Shown: piece by piece, positions 54,961 to 61,662 of the stretch
Layout: every line of letters begins with the position of its first letter
Numbering within the stretch: the first letter of the stretch is position 1
NCBI RefSeq assembly: GCF_024385525.1
Contig: NZ_JANFLU010000010.1
Coordinates: 248,001-312,000, forward strand
Origin: Arthrobacter sp. zg-Y238
GTDB taxonomy: Bacteria; Actinomycetota; Actinomycetes; Actinomycetales; Micrococcaceae
Direction: 5' to 3'
DNA length: 64,000 nucleotides
Made by a program: the position numbers and the translations under genes
Notes under the pieces: generated by a model
Databases searched by the model: none
Seen by the model: the letters and a program-made list of their open reading frames with translations, nothing else
What the model was told of the DNA's origin: nothing

Positions 54961-56382
54961 CTACCGTGCCGCGGTCTCCAGGAGCCGGAGCCAGACTTCA
55001 CTGATCGTGGGATACGCCGGAACCGCATGCCAAAGCCGGTCGAGCGGTACTTCCCCGGCGATCGCAATGGTTGCCGCGTGCACCAGCTCGGTCACGTCAG
55101 GTCCGACGGCGGTGAACCCGACAATCGTGTTGGTGTCCTCATTGATGAGGATGCCTGCGCGGCCGGTATAGCCGTCGGCATGCAGTGAGGCGCCGGCAAC
55201 GGATCCAAGGTCGTATTCCACGGAACGGACCCGGATCCCGGCGTCGACGGCGCCGGCCAGGGTGAGGCCGGCGGAGGCAATCTCGGGGTCGGTGAAGATG
55301 ACCTGCGGAACTGCCCGGAGGTCGGCGGTCGCCGCATGACGCCCCCAGGGGAAGTCCTCGACGGGGGCGCCTGTTGCCCGTGCCACAATCGCGTCTCCCG
55401 CAGCCCGGGCCTGGTACTTCCCCTGGTGGGTGAGCAGCGCACGACCGTTGACGTCGCCCGCGGCGTAAAGCCAGCCGCCGTCGGGCACGGTGCCGTCGGG
55501 GCCGATCACCCGCAGCGTCTCATCCACGCTCAGCCAGCCGGAGGCCGCGAGCCCGAGGTGTTCAAGCCCGAGGTCGCCGGTGTTGGGCCTGCGTCCCGTG
55601 GCAACCAGGACCTCGTCGGCGTCGATACTCCCGCCGCCGGCCAGGGTTACGTGCACGGTGCCGCGCGCGTCGCGGGTCACCTCGCTCGGGCTTGCACCGA
55701 TCAGCACCCGCACTCCAGCGCTTTCCAAGGAGGCGACGACGTGCTCGGCGGCGTACGGCTCGACCCGCGGCAGGACGCCGTCGCGCGCGATGAGCGTCAC
55801 CGCGGCGCCCAGCGCGCTGAAGGCGGTCGCCATTTCCGTGCCGACGACGCCGCCGCCGATGATCGCGAGCCGCTCCGGGATTTTCTTCACGGACACCGCT
55901 TCACGGCTGGTCCACGGGGCAGCGTCCGCCAGTCCCGGGATCGGCGGCAGCGCCGCGCTGCTGCCGGTGGCGATGACGACGGCGTGCCGTGCCGTGATCG
56001 TGCTGACCGTGCCGTCCCGGCCGGTGACTTCCACGGTCCGCGGGGCACTGATCCGCCCGTGCCCGCGGACCAGGGTGATGCCGGCCTGTTGGAGCCACGC
56101 CACCTGGCCCTCGTCGTCCCAGTTCGAGGCGAACCGGTCCCGGCGGGCCAGCACCGCATCGACGTCGAGCCTGCCGGTTACTGCCGCGGCGGCACCGGGC
56201 AGCTGCCGGACCGCGCGGAGTGCGGCCGCGTCCCGCAGCAGCGCCTTGGTAGGCATGCATGCCCAGTAGGAGCACTCGCCGCCCACCAGCTCGGATTCGA
56301 CAATCACCGCACTGAGGCCGCCGGCAACTAGCCGGTCCGCAACGTTCTCCCCCACCGTACCGGCGCCGATAACAATAACGTC
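54961..56382 (-). pseudogene. FAD/NAD-dependent disulfide oxidoreductase (dihydrolipoyl dehydrogenase-like), 5' end split off by the mobile element
   Basis: A 464-residue body remains if translation begins at the GTG at 56355. It keeps the redox-active CX4C disulfide (GGECSYWACMPTK), the NAD site (IIGGGVVGTEMATAF), LYAAGDVNGRALLTH and a C-terminal dimer domain. The first residues, including the FAD GxGxxG motif (DVIVIGAGTVGENVADRL), lie partly upstream: GAGTV is encoded by 56353-56367 but no start codon exists between the in-frame stop inside the element and that GTG. The missing start is found at 61083-61102. The product starting at GTG 56355 would lack the first FAD-binding strand, so it is probably inactive. 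Class: dihydrolipoyl dehydrogenase/mercuric reductase superfamily, substrate unknown. Confidence 0.85.
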
Positions 56383-56408
56383 GGTGGTCTCAACCGGTCA
56401 ACGCACCG
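56383..56408 (+). repeat. Left terminal inverted repeat of the transposon
   Basis: 26 bp starting GGTGGTCTCAACCGGTCAA and ending CGCACCG, directly after target bases TC (56381-56382). It matches the right end inverted at 25 of 26 positions. The outermost bases overlap the coding frame of the split oxidoreductase and give it the false residues before its stop. Confidence 0.9.
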
Positions 56409-56421
56409 CCCGTGATCGGAT

Positions 56422-57606
56422 ATGAAAGTGATGGGAATGGTGCGTGATTATGGGTTTACTGCTGAGCAGCAGGATCAGCTGTGGGAATACTGGCGACGTG
56501 GAGACTCTCTACGGTCGATCGCTAGGAACCTGGGTACGAATACTCAGCGGGTGAGGAACTTCCTGCTGCAGTCCGGTGGTATTCGGTTGCCGGCATCGAA
56601 GCGCAGTGACCGGCACCTGTCGATGGCTGACAGGGAGGAAATATCCCGGGGTATCGCCGCCGGCCACTCAGCCGCCGTCATCGCTGAAAGCTTGGGGCGT
56701 GCGGCCTCAACGGTCTCGAGGGAGATCCGCCGCAATGGCGGGCGTGAGAACTACCGTGCTGTGAGTGCTGATCAGCGCGCGGTGTTGCTGGCGAAGCGGC
56801 CAAAGCCGCAGCGGCTGGATGTGAACCATATGCTGCTCATCGTGGTGGCCTTCAAGCTGGGGCAGGACTGGTCACCGGAGCAGATTTCCCAGTGGCTACG
56901 CCGCACGTACCCGGAGGATGCCTCGATGCGGTTGTCGCACGAAGCGATCTACCGGTCCATCTACATCGCTGAGCGCAAAGCCCTCGCGCGATGCCTGGTC
57001 CGGCCGTCGCATCATCTGCGGTCGGGACGCACGATGCGCATTCCAAGGGCCCCTCGGGTAAGCAACAGGGGACGCCTGAAGAAAATGGTCTCCATCCACC
57101 GCCGCCCAACTGACATCGAACAACGGACTGAGATCGGTCATTGGGAGGGCGATTTGGTGATGGGTGCACGCCCATCTGCTATCGCAACCCTCGTTGATCG
57201 CAAGACCCGGTATGTCCGGCTGGTACAGCTGCCCAATGGAATCAAAGCCGACGTCGTCCGGACCGCCCTGACATCAACCTTCCGCGGGCTACCGGCTGAG
57301 CAACGGCTGTCCCTGACCTGGGACCGGGGACGCGAGCTGGCTGAGCATCAGGAGCTCACGGCCGAGCTGGGCCTGCCCGTATACTTCTGCGATAAACGCA
57401 GCCCCTGCCAACGCGGAACGAACGAAAACACCAACAGGCTCCTACGCCAATATCTACCCAAGAACGGTGACCTTCGTCAGTTCAGCCAGCAGGACCTCAA
57501 TGAGATAGCAGACAGGATCAACACAAGACCACGAAAGGTACTGGACTGGGCAACCTCCTCAGATGCGTTCAACCCCTCAGCAAGGGCCCCTGCTCCAGTC
57601 CTATAA
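56422..57606 (+). CDS. IS30 family transposase
   Basis: A 394-aa DDE transposase. An N-terminal HTH region (residues 10-50, FTAEQQDQLWEYWRRGDSLR) and the second HTH (LSMADREEISRGIAAGHSAA then VSREIRRNGG) bind the terminal repeats. The rve-type catalytic core runs from about 225 to 380 with the triad Asp244 (GHWEGDLVMG), Asp301 (LTWDRGREL) and Glu335 (RGTNENTNRLLRQY), the spacing of the IS30 family. The C-terminal INTRPRKVLDWATSSDAF is also typical. Length is normal and no frameshift is seen, so it could be active. It starts 14 bp inside the left terminal repeat. Confidence 0.94.
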   Translation: MKVMGMVRDYGFTAEQQDQLWEYWRRGDSLRSIARNLGTNTQRVRNFLLQSGGIRLPASKRSDRHLSMADREEISRGIAAGHSAAVIAESLGRAASTVSREIRRNGGRENYRAVSADQRAVLLAKRPKPQRLDVNHMLLIVVAFKLGQDWSPEQISQWLRRTYPEDASMRLSHEAIYRSIYIAERKALARCLVRPSHHLRSGRTMRIPRAPRVSNRGRLKKMVSIHRRPTDIEQRTEIGHWEGDLVMGARPSAIATLVDRKTRYVRLVQLPNGIKADVVRTALTSTFRGLPAEQRLSLTWDRGRELAEHQELTAELGLPVYFCDKRSPCQRGTNENTNRLLRQYLPKNGDLRQFSQQDLNEIADRINTRPRKVLDWATSSDAFNPSARAPAPVL

Positions 57607-57610
57607 AAGG

Positions 57611-57793
57611 ATGGTTATCCGCTTCGTAGCGGAGCCTGCGGGCCTCGACGCTCAGAAGCTGACGCCCGTGGAAACGGCCGACCTGATCCAGCAGGTTGCA
57701 GAGCTCTATCCGGCCCAGCGGAGACGCCTTGATCACGTGATCTGGCGCCATGTTTACGGGCGGGATACGGTCAAGGCCGATGAGTTGGTCTAG
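57611..57793 (+). CDS. Small unknown protein in the transposon
   Basis: A 60-aa frame (MVIRFVAEPAGLDAQKLTPV) that begins 5 bp after the transposase stop, with AAAGG just before the ATG. It contains LTPVETADLIQQVAELYPAQ, RRRLDHVIWRHVYGRD, an Arg/His-rich helical pattern. It could be a true small gene or the 3' remnant of a longer protein truncated when the transposase end was joined here. I recognise no family. Confidence 0.45.
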   Translation: MVIRFVAEPAGLDAQKLTPVETADLIQQVAELYPAQRRRLDHVIWRHVYGRDTVKADELV

Positions 57794-57821
57794 CATCGCT
57801 ACTGTTGCGAGACGAGGTCTC

Positions 57822-58193
57822 ATGGTTGAAGAATGGCGGATGACCATCTCCGACCATGACACGTACATCGCTGCGGCTCCGGAACAGTTCCGCCCACTGC
57901 TGACCACGTTGCGTGCTCAGCTCGCGCGTACCCTGCCGGACGCGGAAGAGGTCATTGAGTACAACATGCCGGGGTTCCGAATTGGACGATCGATTGTCGC
58001 CAGTTACGCCGCCTTCAGTAAGCAATGCGGCCTTTATCTCGCCCCAGGCGCCATCACCGCTCATGCCGAAGACATCGCCGCCGCCGGGCTGAAGGCCACC
58101 AAAACCGGCATCAAATTTCCCGTGAACAAACCCATCCCTGACGACCTCGTCGAACAGCTCGCCCTAACCTCGCGGAAGGACGTTGGGCTGTAA
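57822..58193 (+). CDS. DUF1801 (YdhG/iron-chaperone-like) protein
   Basis: A 123-aa protein with the DUF1801 layout: DHDTYIAAAPEQFRPLLTTL, R-AQLARTLPDAEEVIEYNM, PGFRIGRSIVASYAAFSKQC, GLYLAPGAITAHAEDIAAAG, TKTGIKFPVNKPIPDDLVEQ. Family members are described as iron chaperones or general stress proteins and are common passengers in mobile DNA. GACGAGG stands before the ATG at 57822 (MVEEWRMTISDHDTY); a start at 57840 is possible. Confidence 0.85.
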   Translation: MVEEWRMTISDHDTYIAAAPEQFRPLLTTLRAQLARTLPDAEEVIEYNMPGFRIGRSIVASYAAFSKQCGLYLAPGAITAHAEDIAAAGLKATKTGIKFPVNKPIPDDLVEQLALTSRKDVGL

Positions 58194-58238
58194 CGCTGTG
58201 GACGATCCTTCTGCGGGACATCTGTGGTGTCGGGGCCG

Positions 58239-58547
58239 CTACTCGTCGTATTCCACGTCAGCGAAGGCTTTGACCTCTGATCGAAGTTGCTCCGCGATAC
58301 TGGCACCCTCAGCCTTCCATTCACGTTCCTTGGCGCGTGAACTCCAACCGTTTTCATAAAGGTTCTCGGCATCCCAGGCGTCGTACCAAGCGCGAAGTCG
58401 GTCAGTTAGGGTTTCTGACAGCCCGAAGTCTGCCGGCTCCATTGTGTATTTGCTCGGGTGGCCGGGGGTGCTGTTCTCCCAAAGTGGCCACCGGTGCCCG
58501 TAGTCAGGAAACAGGCGGATGACTCGACGGGCGGGGTCGTCTGGCAT
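58239..58547 (-). CDS. Conserved hypothetical protein in the transposon
   Basis: A 102-aa soluble protein (MPDDPARRVIRLFPDYGHRW) with PLWENSTPGHPSKYTMEPAD, FGLSETLTDRLRAWYDAWDA and an acidic/basic helical end. Proteins with this Y-G-x-x-W-P-L-W-E...DFGLS...L...W pattern occur in many Actinobacteria as short unknown proteins. No function can be given. The frame on the opposite strand is a shadow. It is convergent with the DUF1801 gene. Confidence 0.7.
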   Translation of the reverse strand: MPDDPARRVIRLFPDYGHRWPLWENSTPGHPSKYTMEPADFGLSETLTDRLRAWYDAWDAENLYENGWSSRAKEREWKAEGASIAEQLRSEVKAFADVEYDE

Positions 58548-58696
58548 GACCAAATACTAGCCCCAAGCGGGCATCCTAATGCCGGCCTTCCGGTGTTGAT
58601 CGGACTGCCTGTAAGCCGATCCTCCACCGCTCGCCCTCGTCGTCCGCAGGATCAACGTGGTCATTTCTTCCCGGAACAGCTGGGTTGATTGAGTAA

Positions 58697-59203
58697 TTAG
58701 CTTTTCTCGGAGGCACTACCAGACAGCAAGTTGGAAACAACAGAGGTCTTGGACTGCGTGTAGTCATCCCAGTTTCTTGCTGCTTTCGCGGCGCCGACCT
58801 TGGTATGAAGGTATTCAGCACGGGCGCTTTCGTCGGACCTGAGTAGATCACGAAAGCTAATGCGCCTGCGCCACGGCAGGCTTTCGTATTCCACTACATG
58901 AACAATGTAGGTACGGGATGATCTGGAAGGATGACTAAGCCAACAATGGTGATCGCGTTCACCTTCAAGATCGAACCCGATCGTGGCGAGATGCTGTGAA
59001 ACGCTGCTGACTCTATCTGCTTCGACACCAACAAGGATGTCCACAACATCCTTGGCAGGAAGATCAGGCACGGCAGTGGAACCAATGTGCTCCAGATGGA
59101 CACCGTGGACCTGTTGACGGATCTTGTCCATCATTTCAGCCGCCATTCCCGTCCATTCGGAGTAGCGGCTCGGAACGAGGAAAACAGGTTGATCGGGTGT
59201 CAT
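58697..59203 (-). CDS. GrpB family protein (UPF0157)
   Basis: A 168-aa nucleotidyltransferase-fold protein: HLEHIGSTAVPDLPAKDVVD followed by ILVGV, the GrpB signature (H-x-G-S-T-S/A-V-P-x-x-x-K-x-x-D-x-x), then GERDHHCWLSHPSRSSRTYI and LPWRRRISFRDLLRSDESAR. The Gly-Ser and Asp pairs resemble the active site of the nucleotidyltransferase superfamily. A role in dephospho-CoA metabolism is claimed for some fusions, but free GrpB proteins have no proven activity. Often found in mobile regions. ATG at 59203; upstream extension adds 20 residues without family similarity. Confidence 0.88.
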   Translation of the reverse strand: MTPDQPVFLVPSRYSEWTGMAAEMMDKIRQQVHGVHLEHIGSTAVPDLPAKDVVDILVGVEADRVSSVSQHLATIGFDLEGERDHHCWLSHPSRSSRTYIVHVVEYESLPWRRRISFRDLLRSDESARAEYLHTKVGAAKAARNWDDYTQSKTSVVSNLLSGSASEKS

Positions 59204-59546
59204 GGAGTCATCTTTGCATAGGCCCCATCCTGGCTGCTGCAGGCGCTGTAGAACAAGCTTCACCCAGTGCTTAGCGGATCCTCCAGTGGTCAGCGGCGAA
59301 GCAGGCGTTATGGCTCACCGCTGACGTCGCATTCAGCCTAGTCAACTGCCTTGGATGGCCGCGGTTTAACGACGGTCAAGGGCGCTAGACGTAACGAGGG
59401 ATCCAGCTGCCTGAACAATCAACGGCATGGAAGGATCGTTTTCGTGCCAACAATCCATTTTTTATCTCGCTGTTTGTTCCCGGTAAGGCTTGGGGCCATC
59501 CATGTATGCTCGTCACCAATCTAGCGCTGCTTTGAAGGGGATAAAT

Positions 59547-60281
59547 GTGACGATGAAGTTGGACTGGTCCGGGCTGGTCAATGCCAGAGATCTTGGTGGA
59601 ATCCCGCTGGAGGGCGGCGGTTACACAGTTGCAGGGGCTTTTGCGCGCTCGGACCATCCCCTGATGCTTACGCCGACAGGGTGGGAACAACTGGCCTCTT
59701 ACGGTATTCGCACGATCGTTTCTCTGGAGACAGGAGGCCTGGAAGGAGAAGCCGCCCTACGTGCAAACCGCCCCGTTGAAGTCCCTGAGGGCATATCGGC
59801 GGAGCTGCTTCGCTTGCCGATCGAAGACGGATCCGACGACGACTTTATGGAACGGTGGGCGCGTACAGGCCTTTGGGCAACCCCCCTGTATTTCAAAGAC
59901 GCCCTGGAACGCTGGCCCGATCTGTACGGCTCCGCCCTGAATGCATTTGCTGACGCAGAGCGGCCAGTTCTTTTGCACTGCGGTCGTGGCCACGACAGGA
60001 CGGGCATCATGTCGCTGCTCCTGCTCACCCTCGCCGGCGCCACAGCAGAAGGAATTGCAGAGGACTATCTTCTCAGCGCCCGCAATCTCCAAGCGCGCGA
60101 ACCAGGCGCCGCGGAAAAACTGGATACTGCCCTACAACGGGCCGACACAACGGCCCTAGAAAGCATCCAGGCTGCGATGGCTGTGGTCACCGACGACTGG
60201 TTGGGTGCAGCCGGCGTCATGGAGGAAGTACCAGCGATCATCAAATCGTCCTTGCTCGGAGCTGAGACGCAGTCCTTTTAA
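59547..60281 (+). CDS. Tyrosine-phosphatase-like protein (Y_phosphatase3 family)
   Basis: A 244-aa cytoplasmic phosphatase of the actinobacterial/fungal dual-specificity type. The N-terminus shows LVNARDLGGIPLEGGGYTVA, with the conserved Asp after NxRDLGG, and AFARSDHPLMLTPTGWEQLA. The P-loop is HCGRGHDRTG with Cys145 and Arg151, typical CX5R. The C-terminal 70 residues form a helical cap (AGATAEGIAEDYLLSARNLQ). Such enzymes dephosphorylate phospho-Tyr or phospho-amino-glycosides. GAAGGGG stands before the GTG at 59547; ATG 59553 is an alternative. A passenger of the transposon. Confidence 0.88.
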   Translation: MTMKLDWSGLVNARDLGGIPLEGGGYTVAGAFARSDHPLMLTPTGWEQLASYGIRTIVSLETGGLEGEAALRANRPVEVPEGISAELLRLPIEDGSDDDFMERWARTGLWATPLYFKDALERWPDLYGSALNAFADAERPVLLHCGRGHDRTGIMSLLLLTLAGATAEGIAEDYLLSARNLQAREPGAAEKLDTALQRADTTALESIQAAMAVVTDDWLGAAGVMEEVPAIIKSSLLGAETQSF

Positions 60282-60297
60282 TAGAAGGGCCGCTACC

Positions 60298-60427
60298 GAC
60301 CGTTCTATGGAGTGAAGCACCGTAGAACGGTCCCTCACCGTGCTCTTATGCGCTCCAGCACAGCTTCATATATCCATTGACATCGCCGATGTACGCAAGA
60401 CCAGTACGGTGAAATGCACGGTGAGGG
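60298..60427. promoter_or_regulatory. Candidate res/recombination site and terminator region before the serine recombinase
   Basis: Two overlapping inverted-repeat pairs occur in the 170-bp gap. GACCGTTCTA (60298-60307) pairs with TAGAACGGTC (60323-60332), a possible terminator of the phosphatase gene. CCCTCACCGTGC (60332-60343) pairs with GCACGGTGAGGG (60416-60427), 73 bp apart, a possible paired binding site for the recombinase. Between them lie AT-rich promoter-like bases (TTCATATATCCATTGACA). Recombinase genes of this size are often preceded by their res site. Confidence 0.45.
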
Positions 60428-60451
60428 CACCTTATCTGAAACACTGTCCGG

Positions 60452-61042
60452 GTGAAGATTGGATATGCACGCGTCTCGACCAACGAACAAGACCTCACCT
60501 CTCAGCGGGACGGTTTGGCGGTCCTCGGAGTTGACCCCGAGAACATCTATGTCGATCACGGACTCACTGGGACAAACCGCACGCGGCCAGGATTGCGTGA
60601 GGCCATGGCTGCCGTCAGATCCGGGGACACTCTGGTTGTTACCAAACTCGACCGACTCGCGCGCTCCCTTCCTGACGCACGCGACATTGCCGACGAGCTC
60701 ACACGCAAGGGCGTATCACTGAGCCTGGGTGCCAGCGTCTACGACCCCACGGATCCCGTTGGGCGTCTTCTCTTTAACGTCCTCGGCATGGTCGCTGAAT
60801 TCGAGGCCGATCTCATTCGCATGAGGACCCGTGAGGGCATGGCCGTCGCCAAAGCCAAGGGGCGGCTGCGGGGGAAGACGCCGAAGCTATCTGCTTCACA
60901 GCGCCGGCACTTACTCGAGCTGCACGACAAAGGCGAGCACACCCAGGCCGAACTCGCTGAACTATTCTCAGTCTCTCGAACGACGATCTACCGTGAAGTG
61001 CAGCGACGAGCAATCGCGGCCATGCCACAGCCCCGTCAATAA
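60452..61042 (+). CDS. Serine recombinase (resolvase/invertase type)
   Basis: A 196-aa site-specific recombinase (GTG start, VKIGYARVSTNEQDLTSQRD). Catalytic Ser9 lies in YARVS; Arg residues in KLDRLARSL complete the active site. The N-terminal domain ends with the E helix (FEADLIRMRTREGMAVAKAK), and the C-terminal HTH is LHDKGEHTQAELAELFSVSR followed by TTIYREV. The length is that of Tn3-type resolvases or DNA invertases, not large serine integrases. Its place just inside the right terminal repeat of the IS30-type element suggests it resolves cointegrates or acts on an internal site. Confidence 0.93.
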   Translation: MKIGYARVSTNEQDLTSQRDGLAVLGVDPENIYVDHGLTGTNRTRPGLREAMAAVRSGDTLVVTKLDRLARSLPDARDIADELTRKGVSLSLGASVYDPTDPVGRLLFNVLGMVAEFEADLIRMRTREGMAVAKAKGRLRGKTPKLSASQRRHLLELHDKGEHTQAELAELFSVSRTTIYREVQRRAIAAMPQPRQ

Positions 61043-61056
61043 AATTGGTTTGACCA

Positions 61057-61082
61057 CGGTGCATTGACCGGTTGAGACCACC
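61057..61082 (-). repeat. Right terminal inverted repeat of the transposon
   Basis: 26 bp ending GGTTGAGACCACC, followed by target bases TC at 61083-61084. Inverted match to the left end at 25 of 26 positions (one A/G difference in the inner half). Confidence 0.9.
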
Positions 61083-61102
61083 TCCGTAACGGTCCCGGTC
61101 AT
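61083..61102 (-). pseudogene. Detached 5' end of the split oxidoreductase gene
   Basis: The minus strand reads ATGACCGGGACCGTTACGGA, the start codon and first 20 nt of a gene whose ATG overlaps the stop of the upstream membrane-protein gene (ATGA). Joined to 56380 downwards, it continues in frame to give MTGTVTDVIVIGAGTVGEN, a textbook FAD-binding N-terminus. It is left here as an orphan start by the insertion. Confidence 0.85.
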
Positions 61103-61662
61103 CGTGTGCCGGCCTTCGCAAGACGCTGCAGCCGGATCGCGGAGAGGAGGAAGAACACGCCGCCGAGGGTGGCGTATCCCGCGACACCGGTGAGGGCCGC
61201 TGCGGAAGTGTCGGACATCAGAATGAATCCGGTGCCGGCGAGGCTGGAGATGCCGCCGCTGAGAATCATCGGCCACTGCCCGCCCAGCCGCAGGCGGGAA
61301 ATGGCAACGGCGAGCTGGACGGCGCCCGCGGTAATAGCCCAGACACCCCAGACAACCAGCACGGCGGGCACCCCCGAGGTGACGGCCACACCGAGGGCGA
61401 CGGCGGTCAGCAGGCTAAGCGCCATATTCACCAGGAGCAGCGGGCCGGGACGGGTGGCGCGGGAGGCGCGGTGGTCGACGACGGCGGCCGCGACGTCGAA
61501 CAGCGGGTAGAGGATGAGCAGGGCGATGCTGAGGGGTCCGAGGGTGGAGGCGGTCAGGGCAATGAGGACTGCCCAGACGATGGCGAATCCGAAGCGGACG
61601 AAGTACAGCTTCCGTAGGACCGGTGAGATCGCCGGTGGGGTCTGGGTGGTTGATGTGGTCAT
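61099..61662 (-). CDS. DUF308/HdeD-like membrane protein
   Basis: A 187-aa protein (MTTSTTQTPPAISPVLRKLY) with six short helices between residues 20 and 175, arranged as three pairs as in HdeD/DUF308 proteins. A conserved pattern of LFDVAAAVVDHRASRATRPG and WAITAGAVQLAVAISRLRLG GQWPM-type loops is present. It overlaps the former start of the disulfide oxidoreductase by 4 bp (ATGA), showing that the two genes were translationally coupled before the insertion. Function unknown, possibly membrane stress. It is downstream of the alpha/beta hydrolase gene (56 bp). Confidence 0.8.
   Translation of the reverse strand: MTTSTTQTPPAISPVLRKLYFVRFGFAIVWAVLIALTASTLGPLSIALLILYPLFDVAAAVVDHRASRATRPGPLLLVNMALSLLTAVALGVAVTSGVPAVLVVWGVWAITAGAVQLAVAISRLRLGGQWPMILSGGISSLAGTGFILMSDTSAAALTGVAGYATLGGVFFLLSAIRLQRLAKAGTR

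Follow-up and report, generated by a model that had tools for sequence, protein, structure and literature searches.

An IS30-family transposon of Arthrobacter that probably carries integron-like gene cassettes served by a small serine recombinase

The 64,000 nt analysed here, referred to as the window, are part of contig NZ_JANFLU010000010.1 of Arthrobacter sp. zg-Y238 and contain a 4.7-kb element at 56383-61082 (element coordinates are window positions). Between a left and a right terminal inverted repeat (IRL and IRR) the element carries, in this order, the gene of an IS30-family transposase, four passenger genes and the gene of a small serine recombinase (SR). The locus raises the question of what the SR does in an element with an IS30 enzyme and how the passenger genes came to lie between the two. 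The original prediction assumed a Tn3-like division of labour between transposase and resolvase. Our sequence comparisons point elsewhere: the element is probably an IS30 unit transposon that carries an integron-like cassette array served by the SR.

Judged by the sites that lack it, 56383-61082 is a single transposing unit, as had been predicted. The terminal repeats of 26 nt are identical at 25 positions, and the IS30-type DDE transposase at one end scores 272 bits against the NCBIfam IS30 model NF033563 (cut-off 80). Inverted ends and a short (2-3 bp) target duplication, the marks of the IS30 family, are both present. The TC duplication, for which a comparison with empty sites had been proposed, could be read from five relatives: G279 (the same species), G318, G286, G213 and G241. 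In G279 and G318 the empty site is AACGTCCGTAACG, whereas the occupied site in the window consists of AACGTC, the element and TCCGTAACG, and thus TC was duplicated. In the other three genomes the empty site differs from AACGTCCGTAACG by a few bases. The five empty sites therefore indicate that the element inserted as one unit. The insertion point, read by eye, lies just within the 5' end of a neighbouring pyridine nucleotide-disulphide oxidoreductase gene. Compared by eye with the empty site, the flanks 56355-56382 and 61083-61125 show the first codons of that gene separated from the remainder by the element. A scan of the element at up to 7 mismatches in 25 found no second terminal repeat behind the transposase, in agreement with the original prediction. 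The genome of 3.55 Mb holds three matches to a 22-nt end pattern (up to 3 mismatches), namely both element ends and a right-end relic on contig C8, which gives one full copy and one relic.

We compared the element with 29 genomes of the genus. Pieces of the cargo were found at other places with abutting borders, which divides it into four separate units, and a further piece of homology, the SR module, begins at 60328. Four of the five passenger genes originally proposed (DUF1801, orf104, GrpB and Y_phosphatase3) have homologous units elsewhere; no support was found for the fifth. Pfam and NCBIfam supplied the names DUF1801, GrpB, Y_phosphatase3, Resolvase and IS30 transposase, and orf104 had no family match in either. 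The orf104 unit was also observed in G293, G232, G032 and partly in G204, as well as on the Arthrobacter sp. FB24 plasmid NC_008537, where it starts at a site of the kind described below. When the fetched loci were compared all against all we obtained 233 blocks shared between genomes (at least 80% identity, 180-2500 nt). Along a 5.5-kb stretch of G223 consecutive blocks, overlapping by 5-12 nt, found their best matches in G293 (99%), G000 (100%), G300 (95%), G249 (97%) and G306 (98%). Between G000 and G223 cassette 1 reaches 99.8% identity and the rpoB regions only 93.2%, which indicates recent transfer. A UvrA-like gene of the window had been considered as backbone clock and was replaced by rpoB because it is poorly conserved. 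One block common to G223 and G293 (98.6%; L251:8633-9556) holds a bSEFIR-type defence gene and ends at a site. Overall the cassettes look like interchangeable single-gene units joined at the SR sites of the element itself.

These sites were recognised from the DNA upstream of SR genes, where the homology between SR relatives tends to stop at one place. For 108 out of 193 pairs its left end falls -160 to -131 from the SR start, which is the outer edge of a 28-bp site, and for 45 pairs it is nearer (-80 to -61). Among 168 SR pairs that are at least 80% identical, 134 share a 130-bp leader and 3 share DNA past the site. The site is a GRTC-centred, TGCCCGTWARSSGRTCSNYYACCGGGCA-like dyad of 28 bp, and we detected it (at least 10 bits) centred 120-151 bp upstream of the SR gene in 45/73 SR loci. 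The border consensus was derived from such SR-upstream sites: 47 distinct regions gave 36 sites, 2 off-pattern ones were dropped, and the remaining 34 trained a first model. Its two best matches in the 64-kb window are the cassette 2|3 border at 58619 and the site upstream of the SR at 60330. Beyond 500 bp upstream of 20 SR genes (300 kb) it found 30 sites of at least 14 bits on the plus strand and 6 on the minus strand. The controls gave 0.7 per strand in shuffled sequence (maximum 2 in 10 shuffles); downstream sequence (74 kb) yielded 0 and 1, and other loci (293 kb) 5 and 2. A second model was the first refined without the arrays of this genus, on 119 training sites counted on both strands, so that near-palindromes may count twice. 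It ranks 58619, 60330 and 58205, the last being the cassette 1|2 border, as the top three positions of the window. With these three sites the window shows a row of cassettes upstream of the recombinase and a proximal site, an arrangement typical of integrons.

We then asked how the sites relate to the ends of shared blocks (at least 85% identity, up to 1700 nt) in hand-chosen array loci (19 and 20). At a threshold of 12 bits the second model marks 42 of 181 block-end clusters, compared to 0.68% of random positions. Where a block end lies near a site, 41/64 ends are within 3 bp of its centre and 57/64 at -5 or beyond. A site was found near both ends of 17 out of 72 shared blocks, near one end of 30 and near neither end of 25, with 1.8% for random positions. 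Cassette borders thus tend to fall at 28-bp SR-type sites. The motifs GATC, GGTC and GACC alone had been tried as a border test and proved too loose (107/234 end clusters versus 32% of random positions), and the trained model was used instead. Alternatively, unrelated events of homologous or illegitimate recombination could have brought in the cargo, with a border motif that is there by chance or serves regulation, as the 25 site-free blocks would allow. We regard this as very improbable, given the large enrichment over random positions, the offsets centred on the site and the near exclusion of sites from genes. The sites also appear too short and too divergent for homologous recombination.

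Rows of sites were observed on chromosomes and plasmids alike. Further sites of at least 12 bits lie upstream in 16/20 SR loci, with two or more in 10 of them and 13 in G164. Control loci contain 0.14 sites per 15 kb, and eight rpoB loci none. As 16 of the 20 SR loci had been searched in the model refinement, only L277, L281, L282 and L283 (5, 6, 2 and 1 sites) are held out; the plasmids and the first-model test at more than 500 bp do not depend on that refinement. On pAO1, pHiyo8-1, ERGS1:01 unnamed1 and FB24 plasmid 1 the sites alternate with single or few annotated genes. Across 12 annotated plasmid regions 2/34 sites fall within a coding sequence (CDS), where 24.4 would be expected, and 2/26 against 18.1 after removal of the SR-proximal sites. 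A smaller set of 10 regions, to which two were then added, had given 1/33. Plasmid record L310 is without annotation and the PLSDB gene tables are incomplete. The array products that were checked are diverse (hydrolase, bSEFIR/TIR, methyltransferase, GNAT, winged helix, SnoaL-like, TPR and Ymh). The SR gene of pAO1 is separated from the array by a Mu/Tn402-like pair of transposase and ATPase (L313:10056-13968), as if this pair had inserted into the SR site region. SR relatives (E<=1e-40) were found in 153/395 genomes of the family Micrococcaceae and on 564 plasmid records; at E<=1e-55, 19 of 374 genomes drawn from the class contain one. There was no match in phage records. The features of the window are collected in Table 1.

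Table 1. Coordinates of the element, its proposed cassettes and candidate recombination sites (window positions; PWM, position weight matrix)
Feature	Position	Strand	Details
Target duplication TC, left copy	56381..56382		Basis: empty site in relatives
IRL	56383..56408	+	Left terminal inverted repeat
IS30-family DDE transposase, 394 aa	56422..57606	+	NF033563 272 bits, rve, HTH_38
Cassette 1	57605..58208		DUF1801 gene 57750-58193 (+); 99.7-99.8% in G223, ends at same borders
Site, cassette 1|2 border	58192..58219		Centre 58205/58206; 14.0 bits, symmetrised PWM
Cassette 2 (orf104)	58208..58620		Gene 58239-58553 (-); 98.5% in G306
Site, cassette 2|3 border	58606..58633		Centre 58619/58620; 23.1 bits SR-upstream-only PWM, 19.7 bits symmetrised PWM
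Cassette 3	58667..59281		GrpB gene 58697-59263 (-); 95.6% in G306 C6
Cassette 4	59372..60332		Y_phosphatase3 gene 59547-60281 (+); 95.2% in G323
attI-like SR site	60317..60344		Centre 60330/60331; 21.2 bits; 122 bp before SR start
Second conserved region upstream of SR gene, candidate accessory res site	60388..60432		SR upstream regions compared by eye
Small serine recombinase SR, 196 aa	60452..61042	+	PF00239 1.8e-40
IRR	61057..61082	-	Right terminal inverted repeat
Target duplication TC, right copy	61083..61084		Basis: empty site in relatives

The short recombinase just inside the other end is indeed of the serine type. Its Pfam Resolvase domain (PF00239) spans residues 3-138 and is followed by HTH_7 (145-181) and HTH_38 (144-185), the composition of a small serine recombinase or resolvase. 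The nearest solved structures are the DNA invertases 4m6f and 3uj3, and next gamma-delta resolvase. The upstream region appears to resemble a resolvase site I with an accessory region. The right repeat is fused to a remnant of the SR 3' end in seven genomes of the genus (G183, G223, G279, G318, G286, G213 and contig C37 of G300), on C8 of the same genome and in a Rubrobacter metagenome-assembled genome (MAG). In the latter (L074:1225-2791) a damaged IS30 transposase accompanies the SR remnant beside a perfect right repeat; the contig is filed outside the Micrococcaceae and contamination is possible. C8, G279, G318, G286 and G213 share DNA outside the repeat and therefore probably descend from one old insertion, which leaves about four independent events in the genus besides that of the window. 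The relics support the view that the SR belongs to the transposing unit, and this part of the prediction stands.

As the main account of the element, a Tn3-like division of labour is not supported. Allowing up to 3 mismatches, the end pattern was present in 57/395 family genomes, and 113/395 contain a related transposase (E<=1e-60); we retrieved 40 regions around part of these matches. Plain insertion sequences (IS) of ~1.25 kb with the same ends and a 54-56% identical transposase were found in four genomes (G344, G264, G158 and G057). In Arthrobacter bussei KR32 an IS30-type element of 2.53 kb (L001:7957-10486) has both ends, an 84% identical transposase, the palindromic target AATACG-TT-CGTATT and a Trp/Tyr-type tRNA synthetase as cargo, which is a possible candidate for a resistance role; it contains no SR match. 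We rejected it as a cassette carrier, as there is no SR site of at least 8 bits between its ends. Since IS30 relatives with the same repeats occur without SR, transposition does not need it, and the SR joined one IS30 lineage. In Arthrobacter sp. B1805 (123,701-bp contig) a left end with an 83% identical transposase (L179:8320) and, 40 kb off, a 43% identical SR beside an inverted right end (L180:9313) both have GT in the outer flank; the pair is either a very large relative or two separate ends. Inspection of 51 end flanks by eye showed that the DNA outside IS30 ends is often GTCTC-N4-AA-N2-GAT-like, possibly a target preference that in some cases resembles half an SR site; 7/51 flanks score as SR half-sites at p<0.01, at most a tentative sign that IS30 ends insert there.

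A Tn3-like unit transposon would assign to the SR the resolution of cointegrates or tandem dimers formed by the IS30 transposase and would treat the passengers as ordinary cargo. This would agree with the relationship of the SR to the gamma-delta and Tn3 resolvases, with the resolvase-like region upstream of its gene and with the recurrence of the SR-IRR join in relics. An SR relative also lies beside the Mu-type transposase of pAO1, and in one record an SR relative and a Tn3 transposase are separated by about 7.5 kb. However, the relatives without SR speak against it, IS30 transposes via circular or dimer intermediates without a resolvase, and cassettes found singly elsewhere with borders at SR sites would be left unexplained. 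We therefore consider it unlikely as the main explanation, though the SR may have an additional role as resolvase.

For the cassette array that we favour, the following mechanism is proposed. The SR would bind the 28-bp sites as a resolvase-type dimer and cross over at the central dinucleotide; its catalysis on these sites is inferred. Cassettes would be exchanged between direct sites, by excision and by insertion next to the SR's own site, and the IS30 enzyme would then move the whole platform. Half elements, i.e. the transposase end in G300 and the SR-IRR ends elsewhere, could result from site-specific loss between transposon cassettes and a resident array. The neighbours of the transposase end in G300 are array cassettes; this array terminates in a different SR (70%), next to a stretch that also adjoins the SR in G249. 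Loss of the SR-IRR half through recombination between array sites would give this arrangement. In its widest form, a "serine integron" of Micrococcaceae chromosomes and plasmids whose resolvase-type SR takes up and releases single-gene cassettes at a proximal 28-bp site and which is mobilised by an IS30 transposon, we give the proposal an even chance.

Several observations weigh against this proposal. No recombination event was observed, and no gain or loss of a cassette at strain level was found. Around the array the plasmids pAO1 and pNtRootA4 are identical, and the deletion that distinguishes them has one end within a site but off centre and the other in a transposase gene; it is not site-to-site. 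For the arrays of FB24, ERGS1:01 and pHiyo8-1 the plasmid collection contains no near-identical counterpart. Only one complete IS30-SR element is among the 40 retrieved regions, and 24/73 SR loci have no upstream site of at least 10 bits. In the window itself, the right border of cassette 4 reaches 21.7 bits, but several other borders score poorly: 5.6 at 57608, the transposase side of cassette 1, -6.0 at 58676 and 3.0 at 59281 (GGATCC), to the left and right of cassette 3, and -4.9 at 59372, to the left of cassette 4. The 30 shared blocks with a site at one end and the 25 without any have to be counted here too. The central dinucleotide is GT in 32/36 SR-proximal (attI-like) sites and often AT in cassette sites, and serine recombinases normally require equal 2-bp overlaps. 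Exchange of half-sites gets no support from the mismatch counts, as outer and inner half-sites vary about equally (1.82 versus 1.49 mismatches, 84 pairs). Finally, in 180/193 pairs the SR homology ends on the right close to the end of the gene. The SR and its site therefore form a mobile module of their own, and little can be concluded from the sharp upstream border alone.

Part of this evidence would suit a more passive origin, with the SR as plain plasmid or transposon resolvase and the cassettes as by-product of occasional recombination at scattered res-like sites, for which the parts of PMC12907356 considered here provide a published precedent in the XerCD pdif modules. Several plasmid regions contain an SR with a single upstream site and no array, and these SRs are probably plain resolvases; among the 20 genomic SR loci, 10 have fewer than two further sites and four have none. 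The longer rows, whose sites upstream of the SR share mainly one orientation as counted above, and the shuffling of cassettes between species do not fit. We regard this origin as doubtful, though a more serious competitor than the other two.

If the cassette array is confirmed, its significance lies in the enzyme. Known cassette capture is built on tyrosine recombinases (integrons and Xer modules), and an unrelated enzyme with unrelated sites would represent an independent origin of the same strategy. It would explain why single genes (bSEFIR-like defence gene, GNAT, methyltransferase, phosphatase) are found shuffled among genomes and plasmids of the Arthrobacter type, provide a simple site rule for locating cassettes and offer a small, directly testable recombination system. 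A serine-recombinase cassette system was not found in the literature (open-access full text, judged by the listed results).

Among known systems, the IS30 family shares the transposase family, the inverted ends and the 2-bp duplication. At 4.7 kb and with an SR, cassettes and internal SR sites the element nevertheless differs from its four same-end relatives, which are one-gene IS. The combination of a DDE transposase and a small serine recombinase with a site next to its gene is that of Tn3-, Tn552- and Tn5053-type transposons. However, the transposase belongs to another family, the SR site recurs at the borders of individual cargo genes, and instead of the Tn3-family transposase and ~38-bp ends we found an IS30 transposase and 26-bp ends. 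For Arthrobacter plasmids, the portion of PMC6305408 considered here describes Tn3 transposons and an ISNCY element with resolvase, and an IS30 element without passengers.

XerCD are host-encoded tyrosine recombinases. The pdif/dif modules of Acinetobacter resemble the arrays in that gene modules are lined up between short sites at which a resolution recombinase acts, both on chromosomes and on plasmids. In the sections of PMC12907356 on which this comparison rests they alternate C/D and D/C sites, and a small serine recombinase figures only as a gene inside one module. Here the sites are mostly direct and the row ends with the SR gene.

The closest analogy is with integrons, in particular class 1 integrons, which Tn402-like transposons move. 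Both have a recombinase gene at one end, a proximal site and mostly one-gene cassettes between recombination sites; in both the cassettes are shared across species and the platform is carried by a DDE transposon. The integron integrase TIGR02249 exceeded its cut-off in 0/29 genus genomes, and matches below the threshold also occurred in 14/14 control genomes. The integron enzyme is the tyrosine recombinase IntI and its attC sites are imperfect hairpins with GTTRRRY, whereas here the enzyme is a small serine recombinase and the site a 28-bp dyad. The system works like an integron but is not a member of that class.

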